From positions 6,031 to 70,030 of the forward strand of contig NZ_JAMWYY010000005.1 of NCBI RefSeq assembly GCF_024305175.1: DNA of 64,000 nt, read 5' to 3'. This DNA comes from Flavobacterium sp. (GTDB lineage Bacteria > Bacteroidota > Bacteroidia > Flavobacteriales > Flavobacteriaceae). Both the position numbers and the translations under genes were made by a program. Within the stretch, counting starts at the first letter, position 1; each line of letters starts with the position of its first letter. Positions 35,561 to 43,080 of the stretch are shown piece by piece. The notes under the pieces are model-generated. The model worked only from the letters and a program-made list of their open reading frames with translations, made no database searches and was not told where the DNA came from.

Positions 35561-36832
35561 ATGACAGTAGATTTGCTGCTTGGCTTACAGTGGGGCGACG
35601 AAGGAAAAGGAAAGATCGTTGACGTACTTACATCTAAATATGATATCATTGCCCGTTTTCAGGGTGGGCCCAACGCCGGGCACACTTTAGAGTTTGACGG
35701 TATTAAGCATGTGCTGCGCACAGTACCTTCGGGCATATTCCATAAAAATTCGGTAAATATTATTGGCAACGGCGTGGTGATGGACCCTGTGGTTTTTCAG
35801 AAAGAACTGGAGGGCCTCGAAAAATTTAATATTGATGTTAAAACAAGGCTGCTGATATCGCGCAAGGCACACCTTATACTGCCTACACACCGCCTTTTGG
35901 ATGCAGCATCTGAAGCGAGCAAAGGCAAAGCTAAAATAGGCTCTACATTAAAAGGGATTGGCCCGACTTATATGGATAAAACCGGCAGAAACGGTATCCG
36001 TGTGGGCGATATTGAAATGGACGATTTTAAAGAGCGTTACCGTGCTCTTGCAGATAAGCACCAGGCAATGATCGACTTTTATAATGTGGACCTGCAATAT
36101 GACCTTAAAGAGCTTGAAGAGGAGTTTTTTACAGCCGTTGAGGTTTTAAAGGAACTTACTTTTATAGACAGTGAAGAATACCTTAACAAAGCCATGAAAG
36201 AAGGCAAATCTATACTTGCAGAGGGCGCACAGGGCTCATTGCTGGATATAGATTTTGGTACGTACCCCTTTGTAACCTCATCTAACACTACTGCGGCAGG
36301 AGCCTGTACAGGTTTGGGTATTGCACCAAACAGGGTAAAAGAGGTTTTTGGTATATTTAAGGCTTATACTACCCGTGTGGGCAGTGGCCCCTTCCCTACC
36401 GAACTTTTTGACGAAGTTGGGGCAACTATGGCTAAAGTGGGTAATGAGTTTGGCTCTGTTACGGGCAGGGCAAGGCGCTGCGGCTGGTTAGACCTTGTTG
36501 CGCTTAAATATGCCGTTCAGGTTAATGGTGTTACACAGCTTTATATGATGAAGGGCGATGTACTGTCAGGATTTGAAACACTTAAGGTTTGTACAGCTTA
36601 TGAGTATAAGGGAGAAAAGATAAACCACCTGCCTTATAACATAGAACCTGAAAATGTTACCCCTGTATATGTAGAGAAAAAAGGTTGGGAAGCCGACCTT
36701 ACCGGTATGAGTACTTATGACGAACTACCGCAGGAACTTAAAGAATATATTGAGTTTATTGAGAAAGAACTGGAAGTGCCTATTAAAGTAATATCTGTAG
36801 GGCCGGACAGGAAACAGACAATAATGAAATAG
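35561..36832 (+). CDS. purA: adenylosuccinate synthase
   Basis: LLGLQWGDEGKGKIVD; GPNAGHT; TTRVGSGPFPTEL; GWLDLVALKYA. Confidence 0.98.
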   Translation: MTVDLLLGLQWGDEGKGKIVDVLTSKYDIIARFQGGPNAGHTLEFDGIKHVLRTVPSGIFHKNSVNIIGNGVVMDPVVFQKELEGLEKFNIDVKTRLLISRKAHLILPTHRLLDAASEASKGKAKIGSTLKGIGPTYMDKTGRNGIRVGDIEMDDFKERYRALADKHQAMIDFYNVDLQYDLKELEEEFFTAVEVLKELTFIDSEEYLNKAMKEGKSILAEGAQGSLLDIDFGTYPFVTSSNTTAAGACTGLGIAPNRVKEVFGIFKAYTTRVGSGPFPTELFDEVGATMAKVGNEFGSVTGRARRCGWLDLVALKYAVQVNGVTQLYMMKGDVLSGFETLKVCTAYEYKGEKINHLPYNIEPENVTPVYVEKKGWEADLTGMSTYDELPQELKEYIEFIEKELEVPIKVISVGPDRKQTIMK

Positions 36833-36838
36833 TAAAAA

Positions 36839-36864
36839 GCCGCACATTAAAGTGCGGCTTTTTT
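36839..36864 (+). terminator. intrinsic terminator after purA
   Basis: GCCGCAC-ATTAAA-GTGCGGC-TTTTTT. Confidence 0.9.
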
Positions 36865-36895: not shown

Positions 36896-37450
36896 TTATG
36901 AAACAGTTATGGTAGGATCCCAGTAAAAGTATCCGTAAAGTTGCTGCGTTTCACCGTCAGCGGCAAGCGTGTAAAGGCCAAAAAGCACATAAAAGTTTTC
37001 TGTACCCTGCTTGCTTACCCTTGAGTCAAGCGAAATAAAACTGGCTGGGCCTGTTAATGCAGGCAACCCGTTTGCAGTACCGGTATTAGGAAACACTACA
37101 TTTGTGCGAGAAACGGTATCTACCTGAAAGTTATTAAACACCTGGTCGCCGTTCCAGTACTTAAGGCCATATATTATTACCGCATCATCAGCATTGGCAT
37201 AAATAGACTGCCCGAATACAGAAAGATAATCGCCCGGGTTGGCTTTAAAGTTCAGGTCAGCAGTACCCTGCCCGCTGATTACACCGCGTGTACCGGTGCA
37301 TATCATAAACTGGCTGTTATGGTCTATTCCGGTAGGATTGTTAGGATCCTGGCTTGGGCTTGGGTAATTAGCCTTTACATATTCTGTATCTATCACAATC
37401 AGCAAGTTCATTGACTGTGCCGATACTTCTAAGTTATTTTTTTTAAACAT
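36896..37450 (-). CDS. PixA/AidA-type inclusion body family protein
   Basis: NLLIVIDTEYVKANYPSPSQDPNNPTGIDHNSQFMICTGTRG...GTADLNFKANPGD...DDAVIIYGLKYW...ENFYVLFGLYTL...LYGYFYWDPTITVS, the pattern recalled for PixA/AidA inclusion body proteins. Confidence 0.85.
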   Translation of the reverse strand: MFKKNNLEVSAQSMNLLIVIDTEYVKANYPSPSQDPNNPTGIDHNSQFMICTGTRGVISGQGTADLNFKANPGDYLSVFGQSIYANADDAVIIYGLKYWNGDQVFNNFQVDTVSRTNVVFPNTGTANGLPALTGPASFISLDSRVSKQGTENFYVLFGLYTLAADGETQQLYGYFYWDPTITVS

Positions 37451-37493
37451 GATAAGTAATTTTTTAGTTTAACGTTATTAAAGTTTATTAAGC

Positions 37494-37515
37494 TTCCCCT
37501 ACAGCAGCAGGGGAA
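37494..37515 (-). other. intercistronic RNA hairpin between orphan gene and pixA-like gene
   Basis: TTCCCCT-ACAGCAGC-AGGGGAA perfect 7-bp stem; no T-tract on the minus-strand downstream side. Confidence 0.5.
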
Positions 37516-37522
37516 ATATTTT

Positions 37523-38002
37523 TTAGTGATTACAGTTACAGCTATTCATAGCACCACTGGCATGCAGCGCAAGTAATGCAGCGAACTGGTTGTCGTCAAG
37601 CTTGCTGGCATGCAAAGCATCTGCCGCAAACGGTAGTGGTATATCAAAGTGGTGTGACAGGCCAACACATTTCCAGCCCAAGAAAGGCACATCTACACAT
37701 ATTTGCCCGCTAAGATCAAAGCTTACTGTATTATTAGCCTCTGTAAGGTTAGCGATGGCGATAACCAGTTTAACCCTTGGTATTGGCTGCCAGGTAAAGC
37801 TGGTATTGGTATCAAACTGGAAACTTTTTGTCCAGTTGCCAAACGGCGTGTTAAATGTAATGGTTAGTGTAACAATACCTCCCTGTGCGCTTGCACCTAT
37901 ACAGGCGCTGCATCCTAATACTGAAGGTGTACACCACTGTGCTGCAGTTGCATAATCAAAATCGTTGTAAACTGCTCCGTTTTCTACTTTTAAAGCTTTC
38001 AT
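37523..38002 (-). CDS. hypothetical cysteine-containing protein of the PixA locus
   Basis: 159 aa, no clear signal peptide, Cys motifs WCTPSVLGCSACIG and C-terminal SCNCNH; no family recognised. Confidence 0.65.
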   Translation of the reverse strand: MKALKVENGAVYNDFDYATAAQWCTPSVLGCSACIGASAQGGIVTLTITFNTPFGNWTKSFQFDTNTSFTWQPIPRVKLVIAIANLTEANNTVSFDLSGQICVDVPFLGWKCVGLSHHFDIPLPFAADALHASKLDDNQFAALLALHASGAMNSCNCNH

Positions 38003-38030
38003 AAATTGTAATTTTTATAGTTGTTACCTA

Positions 38031-38090
38031 CTCTGTTTTTAAGATGGATTTTCGGTTTCCTCCGTTTTTAAATAATTGGTTTAACAGGTT
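38031..38090. promoter_or_regulatory. direct-repeat array upstream of orphan/PixA genes (candidate response-regulator site)
   Basis: CTCTGTTTTTAA (38031-38042) and CTCCGTTTTTAA (38060-38071), 29 bp apart, plus GGTTTAA (38078) and GGTTAAA (38087). Confidence 0.35.
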
Positions 38091-38204
38091 AAAATGGCCA
38101 TTTTTACTGCTTTATTGATGTAAATTTATACTTCAAAAAAGCCATATAGTAGAAAAATGCCACGAAGCAGCAATACCTTGTCATGAAACCGATATTTACA
38201 GGCA

Positions 38205-38234
38205 TAAAAAAAGCCACCTGTTAATAAAGGCAGC
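38205..38234 (-). terminator. intrinsic terminator after the LytTR gene
   Basis: Minus strand GCTGCCT-TTATTAAC-AGGTGGC followed by TTTTTTT. Confidence 0.65.
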
Positions 38235-38257
38235 TTTTTGTATGGGCTAAAGTCAGG

Positions 38258-39001
38258 TTATTTAAAGATAATGGTGTCTTTAAGAAAGTCCTTATACTTA
38301 TCGCTGAGTATAACTTTATACCCTCCCTGCATTAGTATAAGATTGTCTGAAGGCATTATTTCTAAAGCGTGACTGATATTGATAATAAAATTCCTGTGGG
38401 TTTTAAAAAACACCGCAGGATTTAAATATTCAGCTATGCGGTTTAATGACATCATTACCACAAATTTTTCCTGCTGTGTAATCACATTACAGTACCGCTC
38501 TTCTACTTCTATATATACAATATCTGCTATTGCTACTTTTTTAAGCGACTTATTTTTCTTTATAAACAAATACTCCTGGCTTACCGTTGTATTTGTTTCT
38601 TCTTCAGTAACCTCATGTTGGCCGTAAAATTTTTCGATTGCCATTTCTATGGCGTACAGTACTTCAAGTTCATTAAAGGGTTTCAGCAGAAAACTAAACG
38701 GGTGGGTTAGCTTTGCCCTTTCAAATATTTGCCTGTCATTAGAACTTGTTAAAAAAATAAAGGGTTTTACGGCTCCCGGCACAGCACTGATGGCTTCGGC
38801 AAATGTGATGCCCTCGGGGTTGCCATTAAGGAATATATCTACAATAGCAATATCAGGCTCAACTGAATAATATAAAGCTAATGCATCTTTAAACGAGGCA
38901 GCAACACCTACAACCTCAAAGTTGTCAGCTTGCAATACAGCCAAAAGCTTTTCACTTTCGGCAGGTGTATCTTCTATTATTAAAACTTTAAGTTTATCCA
39001 T
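38258..39001 (-). CDS. LytTR family response regulator
   Basis: Receiver (KVLIIEDTPAESEKLL...DIAIVDIFL...PFSFLLKPF) plus LytTR domain (VEVEERYCNVITQQEKFVVMMSLNRIAEYL...FKTHRNFIINISHALEI). Confidence 0.93.
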   Translation of the reverse strand: MDKLKVLIIEDTPAESEKLLAVLQADNFEVVGVAASFKDALALYYSVEPDIAIVDIFLNGNPEGITFAEAISAVPGAVKPFIFLTSSNDRQIFERAKLTHPFSFLLKPFNELEVLYAIEMAIEKFYGQHEVTEEETNTTVSQEYLFIKKNKSLKKVAIADIVYIEVEERYCNVITQQEKFVVMMSLNRIAEYLNPAVFFKTHRNFIINISHALEIMPSDNLILMQGGYKVILSDKYKDFLKDTIIFK

Positions 39002-40733
39002 TTTTTTGTGGCTTTTGTAAAGTGATAATCATGGCAGTACCCTTTCCCGGTTCGCTTTCTATAGCTAAAGCCGCGTTGTTTTTAAGCAGTATTGATTTAC
39101 ATAACTGAAGCCCGAGACCGGCTCCTGTGCCGTTCTTTTTATTAATAAGCACATCCGATTCTTTTAATACTTCTTCTATAACCTCAGCAGTCATGCCTTT
39201 ACCAGTATCCGTTATCCTAAGCTTTACTTTATTATCTTTTTTAACCTCTGAATCTATTTTTATAAATCCTCCGGCAACAGTGTATTTAATGGCGTTATCC
39301 AGTATGTTCCGCAATACCAGCTTCAGGCTCTCGCAGTCTGCAAACACAACAGCCCTTGCAGGCACATCAATAGTAAAATGTATGTCTTTGGCATGCATAA
39401 TCGCAGTATAGTTATAAGCCACCTGCTCTACCAGTAGCAGCAGTCGCAAAGCTTCTATATTAAAATAAGACTGCTTTGTTTGCAGCAATGCCCAGTTAAG
39501 CAGGTTATCCAGTAAATTATATGTGCTGTTGGCTATTTCGCTGCTGTTATGTAGCTGCTTATCAAGCGCTTCATATTCTTTTTTCTCATAATGCCTCAGC
39601 AAAGAGGCATTACTGCTTTTTAAAGCGCTTACAGAGGTGCGCAGGTCATGGCTTACTATAGAAAAAAGCCTGTCTTTGGCAGCATTAAGATCATTTAGTT
39701 TTGCCTTTTGCGCTTCTATTATCCGGTTAATTTTTATTTTTTGCCTGTAAAAGTAAATAAGCACTGCAACCAGTACCAATAATATACCCGATGTATAAAC
39801 AAGCCTGTCGCGCTCTGCCTTCTTAACTTTGTTTTCGCTTATAAGCTGGTTTACCTCTTTTTGCTTTTGGGCAACGGCAAACCTTTTCTCAAGGCCTGCA
39901 AGCTCCCATACTTTATTGCGGTTGTTTAAAGAATCACGCCATGCTTCATACTCTTTACGGTATATAATAGCCTGATTATAGTTTTCACGGTTCTCTTCCA
40001 CCACTGCCATATTAAGGGCAGCGTTTTGCTTAAGTGCAAAATCATTTACCTTTTTAGAAAGCTCATAGGCTTTTATAAAATTGGGTATGGCTTTATCATC
40101 CTGATACTGTTCATAATATAATGTGGCAATATCCATATAAGAGCCAATAAGCGCAAGAGTGTCTTTTGCCTGCTCCTGCATTTTAAATCCTTTAAAAAGG
40201 CATTGTTCCGCCTCGTTAAACCTGCCCAGGTGCAGGTAGCAAAGCCCCAGGTTGTGCAGCACGCTGCTCACTTTAAAACCAAGTGCAGGGGCATCTTGCA
40301 GTGCTTCAATTTCCTGAAAATAAGGTATAGCAAGGTTAAACTTGTTCTGCTCCAGCAGTATTTCGCCTATAGAGAGCCGTACTTTATAATAAAAATCAAA
40401 TTCTTTGCTAATAGCATTATACTCTTTTAACGCCTCATCTAAAAGCCCTTTCCTTGCAAAAGCCGTAGCACGAAAGTAACAGGAATAATCTTTAACTTCT
40501 TTATTGTTGTCTTTTTCAAGCTGCCGCATGGAATAGACCATAACAGAATCCCATTCTTTCGCAAGGAAAAAAGTATGGGCTTTATAAAAGTCAGGCTGTT
40601 GTTTATGCTGTATGCCCTTTTCCTTTATTGTTTTATTAAGCAGTGATATAGTTGTATCTGCCTGCGAAAAAGCCAAAACAGGCAGGCAAAATGTTATATA
40701 CAATAAGTATATCCTTAATGGTATTTTATACAT
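38994..40733 (-). CDS. TPR-containing sensor histidine kinase
   Basis: Signal peptide/TPR region, single TM (LVYTSGILLVLVAVLIYFY), H-box FSIVSHDLRTSVSAL, HATPase DNAIKYTVAGG...GKGMT...GAGLGLQLCK; overlaps LytTR gene. Confidence 0.93.
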   Translation of the reverse strand: MYKIPLRIYLLYITFCLPVLAFSQADTTISLLNKTIKEKGIQHKQQPDFYKAHTFFLAKEWDSVMVYSMRQLEKDNNKEVKDYSCYFRATAFARKGLLDEALKEYNAISKEFDFYYKVRLSIGEILLEQNKFNLAIPYFQEIEALQDAPALGFKVSSVLHNLGLCYLHLGRFNEAEQCLFKGFKMQEQAKDTLALIGSYMDIATLYYEQYQDDKAIPNFIKAYELSKKVNDFALKQNAALNMAVVEENRENYNQAIIYRKEYEAWRDSLNNRNKVWELAGLEKRFAVAQKQKEVNQLISENKVKKAERDRLVYTSGILLVLVAVLIYFYRQKIKINRIIEAQKAKLNDLNAAKDRLFSIVSHDLRTSVSALKSSNASLLRHYEKKEYEALDKQLHNSSEIANSTYNLLDNLLNWALLQTKQSYFNIEALRLLLLVEQVAYNYTAIMHAKDIHFTIDVPARAVVFADCESLKLVLRNILDNAIKYTVAGGFIKIDSEVKKDNKVKLRITDTGKGMTAEVIEEVLKESDVLINKKNGTGAGLGLQLCKSILLKNNAALAIESEPGKGTAMIITLQKPQKNG

Positions 40734-40765
40734 TGTGCCTGCTGTTTATTTTAAAAAAGCTTAAC

Positions 40766-41212
40766 TTAATTACGCTGTACATTGGTTACAGTACCCCGCG
40801 ATGCCTTAGGGTCGGTATCCCATAAAAAAGTTTCAATTTCATTAATTTTATTCACCTCTATACCGTGTATAGCAGCAGGATCTAGTGAGAAGTTTACCTG
40901 ATAAGCATTAAATTCTGTTGCCATTGTTCGTTTATGATCATAGCACACATAAAACTTTACAGGCGGCTCACCTTCTACATAGGGCTGGCATTCCTGAAAG
41001 ACTTCAAAAGAAGGAGAAACAATAGCTGCATCAAGAAACACTACCGCACTTATTCTCATTTCATCAGATTCAGTAAAATAGGTTGCTTCTACAAGCGGAG
41101 AAAGCGGGATGTCGGGGCATTTGTTCTCAAAATTTATTTTACCGGCAGGTCTTACCGATATAATAGTAATTTTTTGCCCCGGAGGGTTAACAGTGTAAGG
41201 TGTTGTCATCAT
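40766..41212 (-). CDS. hypothetical protein upstream of the sensor kinase in the PixA locus
   Basis: 148 aa, same strand, 32 nt from the kinase start; no recognised family. Confidence 0.6.
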   Translation of the reverse strand: MMTTPYTVNPPGQKITIISVRPAGKINFENKCPDIPLSPLVEATYFTESDEMRISAVVFLDAAIVSPSFEVFQECQPYVEGEPPVKFYVCYDHKRTMATEFNAYQVNFSLDPAAIHGIEVNKINEIETFLWDTDPKASRGTVTNVQRN

Positions 41213-41406: not shown

Positions 41407-43080
41407 TTGAAAAAGCACTTATTATACACAGCTTTACTGTTCTTAGCCTGCTTTTGCGCGACTGCCCAAAATGATAAGAAAATAAAGCTGGTAAAAAATG
41501 AATACCTGAATGCCGACGAGAATGAAGTGCCGGGTGCCGTGGTATTTATCGGCAATGTGCAGTTTGAGCATAATGGTGCTAACATATACTGCAATAAAGC
41601 CTACCTGTTTGAACAGGAAAACTACGCCAAGTTATTCGGTAATGTACGCATAACGCAGGGCGACACCCTGCACATGAACAGCGAATATGCTGAATATAAC
41701 GGCAATAAGAATTTTGCTTTTGCAAGTGGCAAAGTGGTAATGCGATCTCCTGATATGCGACTCATGACTGATACAGTATATTTTGACAGGGCAGCGCAGC
41801 AGGCTTATTACAACTCATATGGCACTATAGTAAATAACGAAAATACATTAAAGAGTAAATCAGGGCGTTATTATGTAAACCAAAAGAAATACCAGTTTCT
41901 TACTGCCGTTACACTTACCAACCCTAAGTATGTATTAAAATCTAACTACCTTGATTATTATACTAACTCCGGGCATGCCTATGTATTCGGGCCATCATCA
42001 ATAACAGGGAAAACAAACTACATTTATACTGAGAACGGGTTTTATGATACCAAAAAGAATTATGCGCACCTGCTCGATAATTCATATATAAAATATGATA
42101 CCCAGTATATTAAAGGCGACAGTATTTATTATGACAGGAACCGTGAGTTTTCTTCGGCTACCAATAATGTAAGTGTTACCGATACCATTAATAAATTCAA
42201 CGTGCGGGGCCATTATGCCGAAGTTTATAAACAAAAAGACTCACTTTTTATAACCAAACACGCCCTGGCTGTTACGCTGGTAGAGCAGGATTCACTTTAC
42301 ACACACGCCAAGCGTATTGTAGTTACTGGCAAAGAAGGACAACGTATTGTGAGGGGCTATAATGATGCACGTTTTTATAAAGTGGATATGAGTGGCAAGT
42401 GTGATTCCATTCATTCAGATGAGGCTAAGGGGCTTACTCAGCTTATACGCCGCCCGGTGGTTTGGAATGGCGAGAGCCAGCTAACGGGTGATGTTATCCA
42501 TCTGATATCGAATAGCCAGACCGAGCAGATAGATTCACTCAAGGTGTTAAACAATGCTTTTATAGTGCAAAAAGATACTCTGGGCACCGGGTACAACCAG
42601 GTAAAAGGGCAAAATTTATATGGCAAATTCCGTGATAACAAGCTTTATGAGGTTGACCTGATAAAGAACACCGAGAAGATTTATTACATGTATGACGACC
42701 TTGAGCTTGTGGGGATAGATAAAGGGCTTAGCAGTAAAATACACCTTAAGCTTAAAGATAACGCCATAACATCTGTACGCTCTATAAACAGGCCTGATAA
42801 TACCTCATACCCTCCCGATGCGCTTCCTGAGAATGCCCGTAAGCTAAGAGGCTTTATCTGGCGCGGAGACGAACGTATAAGGAGTATTGAGGACCTCTTC
42901 CCTCCTGAAGAGCAGCAACTGCACGAGGAGATACTCAAAAAAACAAGGGCTGTTAAAAATGAAGAGGTAAAACCTATGGAAGTTTTACAGGAAACGCTGG
43001 ACTACGACAAAAATAACCCTAAGCCCAAACCTTTAGAGCCGGTAGAACAGCCGGCCCCGAAACCGGAAAAGCAACAATAA
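41407..43080 (+). CDS. OstA/LptA-like domain protein, exported
   Basis: TTG start directly preceding signal peptide KKHLLYTALLFLACFCATAQ; GNVQFEHNGANIYCNKAYLFEQENYAKLFGNVRITQGDTLHMNSEYAEY OstA-like repeats. Confidence 0.88.
   Translation: MKKHLLYTALLFLACFCATAQNDKKIKLVKNEYLNADENEVPGAVVFIGNVQFEHNGANIYCNKAYLFEQENYAKLFGNVRITQGDTLHMNSEYAEYNGNKNFAFASGKVVMRSPDMRLMTDTVYFDRAAQQAYYNSYGTIVNNENTLKSKSGRYYVNQKKYQFLTAVTLTNPKYVLKSNYLDYYTNSGHAYVFGPSSITGKTNYIYTENGFYDTKKNYAHLLDNSYIKYDTQYIKGDSIYYDRNREFSSATNNVSVTDTINKFNVRGHYAEVYKQKDSLFITKHALAVTLVEQDSLYTHAKRIVVTGKEGQRIVRGYNDARFYKVDMSGKCDSIHSDEAKGLTQLIRRPVVWNGESQLTGDVIHLISNSQTEQIDSLKVLNNAFIVQKDTLGTGYNQVKGQNLYGKFRDNKLYEVDLIKNTEKIYYMYDDLELVGIDKGLSSKIHLKLKDNAITSVRSINRPDNTSYPPDALPENARKLRGFIWRGDERIRSIEDLFPPEEQQLHEEILKKTRAVKNEEVKPMEVLQETLDYDKNNPKPKPLEPVEQPAPKPEKQQ

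Follow-up and report, generated by a model that had tools for sequence, protein, structure and literature searches.

Do five neighbouring genes, one encoding a PixA/AidA-family protein and two encoding a two-component pair, form a single system, and what controls the PixA gene? The window, i.e. the whole stretch of 64,000 nucleotides of Flavobacterium sp. DNA that was analysed, carries five minus-strand ORFs at 36896-41212, which are read from 41212 to 36896 as O148, kinase, regulator, O159 and PixA (Table 1). The ORF listing bore out what the first-pass annotation had said of the reality of these genes, their order and strand, the overlap of the kinase and regulator genes (8 nt) and the borders formed by purA and the OstA-like gene. 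The block is two units, a cassette of O148, kinase and regulator and a target operon of O159 and PixA, since the 255-nt gap before the O159 gene (ATG at 38002, minus strand) contains a whole promoter together with an RNA leader. O159 and PixA are probably on one shared transcript, and the hairpin at its end, judging by its symmetry, may serve the end of purA too. The PixA and O159 genes are each present in a single copy in the source genome of 3.2 Mb.

Table 1. Features of the locus, in positions of the window.
Feature	Position	Strand	Basis or remark
O148, 148 aa	40766-41212	-	Family undescribed; constant first gene of cassette; C-terminal motif DPxxSRGTxT conserved
TPR sensor histidine kinase, 579 aa	38994-40733	-	Pfam; topology by eye
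Receiver-LytTR response regulator, 247 aa	38258-39001	-	Pfam
LytTR-type half-site 1, TTTATGCCTGTAA	38196-38208	-	
LytTR-type half-site 2, TTCATGACAAGGT	38175-38187	-	Repeat search, held-out test
LytTR-type half-site 3, TTCGTGGCATTTT	38154-38166	-	Repeat search, held-out test
-7 element TAAATTTAC (TAnnTTT), exactly 25 nt past half-site 3	38120-38128	-	
DUF805b RNA (RF02914), leader of O159 gene	38025-38065	-	39.0 bits vs gathering score 35.6
O159, 159 aa, contains Cys; no known family; opens target operon	37523-38002	-	
PixA/AidA-family protein, 184 aa, second gene of target operon	36896-37450	-	
Terminator-like hairpin at PixA end	36834-36863	listed on -	
purA, convergent flank	35561-36832	+	
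OstA-like gene, divergent flank	41407-43080	+	

Protein searches run on all five ORFs confirmed the identities proposed for the kinase, the LytTR regulator and PixA, and gave nothing significant for O148 and O159 in Pfam. PixA is a clear member of the PixA/AidA family (PF12306) of Xenorhabdus and Burkholderia, with an E-value of 6.6e-44 and 150.5 bits against a cut-off of 21; its 184 aa fall within the family's length range of about 173-191 aa (PMC9060813), and 4lzk, 4q52 and 4pib are related solved structures. The kinase matches HATPase_c (5.9e-19) plus TPRs, with a sub-threshold match to HisKA, and by eye has an N-terminal signal sequence, TPRs, one transmembrane segment and a HisKA-type/HATPase_c part. 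Its best NCBIfam match is the FimS sensor kinase of Porphyromonas (NF053520), but at 181 bits it is far under the 600-bit cut-off of that family. The regulator matches LytTR (1e-18) and a receiver domain (1.3e-12), both over cut-off. The direct repeats to which LytTR proteins bind are spaced by about two helical turns, and LytTR response-regulator systems include AgrA and ComE, for which the typical partner kinase is of the LytS/AgrC type. The window has in common with these systems a receiver-LytTR protein and direct repeats two helical turns apart, but its kinase is HisKA-type with TPRs rather than LytS/AgrC-type, no LytS-type match being among the Pfam matches listed for it, and the window has a constant third protein, O148, and many swapped targets.

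The five genes had been put forward as a candidate system. Co-inheritance is supported for O148, kinase and regulator, the only constant part, but not for PixA and O159, which are rarely beside the cassette. Among some 65 non-redundant loci of Flavobacteriaceae, nearly all have O148 directly before the kinase; contig ends and broken genes make up the exceptions to the O148-kinase-regulator order. A search of 251 genomes of the family found O148 in 13, with kinase and then regulator directly after it in every neighbourhood read except that of G075, whose O148 match is itself doubtful (low score, internal stops). A scan of a named collection gave 40 loci, mostly from Flavobacterium, plus Flavivirga, Snuella and Aquimarina; about ten loci are duplicated between collections. 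By profile search, O148 is present in 26 of 121 genomes of one genus, probably Flavobacterium, and the regulator ortholog in 30, i.e. in those 26 where O148 was found directly and in four others, two of which (G281 and G302) have an O148 of divergent type that was recognised on reading the locus. The remaining two, where the regulator was found and O148 was not, are G296, whose locus is cut by the contig start, and G352. The cassette is apparently broken in G352 (L242, kinase match about 7 kb from the regulator) and in G354 (L082, kinase split into two frames). The cassette lies in several unrelated neighbourhoods (rluB/folD-like, mreB/purH-like and pnp/rpoD-like, and purA/OstA in the window; L023-L036, L073-L100), which indicates that it has moved between sites.

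O148 itself ends in a conserved C-terminal WDxDPxxSRGTxTxV, and its 36 aligned members have no Pfam match in common. The predicted model is beta-rich and fairly confident (pLDDT 84), and a fold search with it against solved and viral structures gave nothing significant; neither O148 nor O159 has a match on plasmids. O159 contains seven Cys and has no significant Pfam family, and its single-sequence structure model (pLDDT 50) is too poor for use. A relative of O159 was found in one other genome only, G360 (L072 1-833), which is also the one other locus with an O159-type gene directly after the cassette. There the cassette, three half-sites, a -7 element (TAATTTTAG) at 25 nt and a leader are arranged as in the window, and the O159 relative is the longer protein, extends into repeats that contain Cys (IPTVQCIPTVTSC) and is cut off by the contig end, beyond which a PixA gene may lie. 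A PixA gene right after the cassette was found in one further locus, L023, where it is accompanied by a 157-aa protein. Both orphans had been suggested as signalling proteins or as co-inclusion partners of PixA. The co-location of the genes and the probable common transcript of O159 and PixA speak for such a partnership, but O148 follows the kinase, most genomes that carry it are without PixA, and profile comparison and fold search, which lend no support to a kinship of O148 with PixA, show no similarity between the two proteins. We find it hard to credit that O148 and O159 are both partners of this kind. A co-inclusion role is unlikely for O148, since it travels with the kinase and not with PixA; O159 may still have one. 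Instead, O148 would be a signalling component of the cassette.

If the target genes vary, what connects them to the cassette? A de novo search found a pair of 13-mers of the TTCATGACA type with a period of 21 bp in 15 of 15 gaps between regulator and target, although periods of 20-23 were allowed and some of the gaps come from close relatives. In these training gaps the repeat-pair score was 337, compared with a maximum of 220 for shuffled sets, and the window site, with the window held out, scored 22.1 against a shuffle maximum of 14.4. Using a matrix built from six other loci with duplicates removed, sites scoring at least 15 were found before 14 of 21 genes directly after the regulator, one of 58 O148 genes and one of 286 other genes (p 3e-18; the loci are related by descent, so these counts are not independent). 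Autoregulation of O148 through the repeats is not supported. The sole site among the 286 other genes heads a gene just before O148; in G311, a 320-aa gene with repeats and a -7 element (L080 2285-3247) is just upstream of O148, so that the target there precedes the cassette. TAnnTTTG is the Bacteroidota -7 element, and TAnnTTT occurs exactly 25 nt past the repeat in 34 of 39 sites. Across the genus, the strict pattern is present in 18 of the 26 genomes with O148 versus 25 of the 95 others (p 1.3e-4), the latter rate differing little from the background given by the reversed pattern. Some loci (L026, L082, L138) have weak sites or none, as does the stretch before PixA in G361.

Where relatives have a gene after the regulator, it is mostly preceded by the same promoter, though the gene is swapped. 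Control of the O159/PixA operon by the kinase/LytTR pair is very probable, since relatives carry the direct repeats at the corresponding position, and the earlier proposal to this effect is well supported by sequence. It might be argued that the PixA operon merely sits beside a two-component system dedicated to other genes, with repeats that belong to another regulator. PixA is indeed rarely adjacent to the cassette, and the loose pattern is no more frequent than background in cassette-less genomes, so that some pattern matches are noise. However, repeats are found just after the regulator in locus after locus despite the swapped genes, at a fixed spacing from the -7 element, and we regard a chance neighbourhood as very unlikely.

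We propose, with considerable confidence, that the target operon is swappable and is driven by a conserved signalling cassette, whose regulator activates the O159/PixA promoter via the repeats. The kinase would sense a cue, probably via a periplasmic TPR domain, and phosphorylate the LytTR regulator, which would bind two or three direct repeats, one per 21 bp or two helical turns. The bound repeats would end 25 nt before the TAnnTTT -7 element, at about the position of a -33 element, from where the regulator could activate the promoter and yield a transcript that starts with the DUF805b RNA leader. O148 would be a third member dedicated to this pathway, and its most likely task would be to gate either the kinase or the regulator. 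The gene order with its conservation, the layout of the promoter and its occurrence at swapped and at distant targets are seen in the sequences themselves; in this scheme we infer the binding, activation rather than repression, the periplasmic cue and the gating by O148. Sequence cannot tell the sign of control, and the regulator could in principle repress the operon; the repeats, however, are upstream of the -7 element at a fixed distance and without overlap, which fits activation, and repression seems very improbable.

The leader offers another conceivable level of control, with the two-component system incidental. The window leader matches the DUF805b RNA motif over its gathering score, and DUF805-type RNAs occur in the leaders of several targets; the leader RNA of G360, at 29.9 bits, is under that score. 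DUF805 and DUF805b RNAs are nevertheless genus-wide and not tied to the cassette, having matches in 75 and 106 of the 121 genomes of the genus, mostly at unrelated genes without repeats, and on these grounds they were rejected as a regulon marker. Their position ahead of many genes in Flavobacterium that are unrelated (for lipoproteins, DUF805 membrane proteins and small peptides; L141-L200) suggests a general leader, and we doubt very strongly that it is the main control here.

In the proposed scheme, the O159/PixA pair is one version of an exchangeable cargo. The gene or genes after the regulator encode 227-, 214-, 343- and 340-aa proteins in Snuella and relatives and, in other loci, a mannan-binding lectin (PF12151) with a GH18 protein nearest to endo-beta-N-acetylglucosaminidase H, small pairs that resemble cystatins marginally, DUF2589 proteins, or a small protein of 79-83 aa that looks membrane-bound; in many cassettes, no target stands between the regulator and a convergent rluB-like gene. 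By eye, no signal peptide is present in PixA, O159 or the lectin, GH18, cystatin-like and DUF2589 proteins, and one is present in a few other downstream genes (L097, L135). Targets may also be distant. In F. limi (G128, L106), where the cassette is near C21:195-198 kb, sites lie at 388-399 kb, about 200 kb off, before a PixA gene, a DUF1842 gene and a 104-aa gene, none of them used in training. Similar islands in G258, G304, G328 and G348 carry DUF1842, MakCD-like, Stv-domain and radical SAM maturase genes, and phage-collar-domain genes in G340 and a lipase-like gene in G306 are among the predicted distant targets.

Several of these genes have relatives under quorum control. Burkholderia aidA is tied to quorum sensing, since in quorum-sensing mutants it belongs to the most strongly affected genes (PMC9060813), but the window PixA has a predicted LytTR promoter instead, and the five genes of the block include no LuxR/LuxI pair, which acyl-homoserine-lactone control would call for. 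Quorum regulation is also described for DUF1842 genes and a maturase of Chromobacterium (PMC12114271). The DUF1842/DUF1843/radical SAM operons of that organism share DUF1842 and a TIGR03913-like radical SAM/SPASM maturase with the predicted distant targets, but here the promoter is of an unrelated LytTR type and the maturase is under the family cut-off. PixA, DUF1842 and the radical SAM maturase are quorum-regulated in some Proteobacteria and belong to an unrelated switch here, which hints that their common role is linked to density. One can imagine, although we think it rather unlikely, that O148 founds a new class of signalling proteins, a dedicated ligand or gate of the TPR kinase. The cassette would then be a flavobacterial density- or contact-sensing switch that turns on interchangeable sets of proteins directed at eukaryotic neighbours, most of them leaderless (PixA, DUF1842, mannan-binding lectin, Endo-H-like, cystatin-like).

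Little is understood about PixA/AidA proteins. Here they join a set of targets for which there is a candidate regulator and whose promoter is resolved to the base (repeat, 21-bp period, repeat, 25 nt, -7), so that the regulon becomes predictable in any genome that bears the cassette, and testable by one deletion. Because the same site marks swapped targets in many relatives, the targets of the switch can likewise be predicted and tested, and orphan genes otherwise unconnected are grouped as probably co-regulated. O148, a constant third component without known relatives, is now named. A text search of the literature, weak as evidence of novelty since most subscription papers are outside its coverage, found no report of LytTR with PixA or of LytTR with Flavobacterium and TPR.

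Two further occurrences of the repeat pattern were noted. A second repeat pair in the window (15657, plus strand; score 19.1) has no -7 element at the right distance and is probably due to chance. Finally, a sequence that fits the loose repeat pattern, TTTATGCCATTCTTT-N-TTTTGTACCAT, recurs in genomes with and without the cassette (G275, G280, G306, G323, G343, G354), where it is possibly the site of another regulator.
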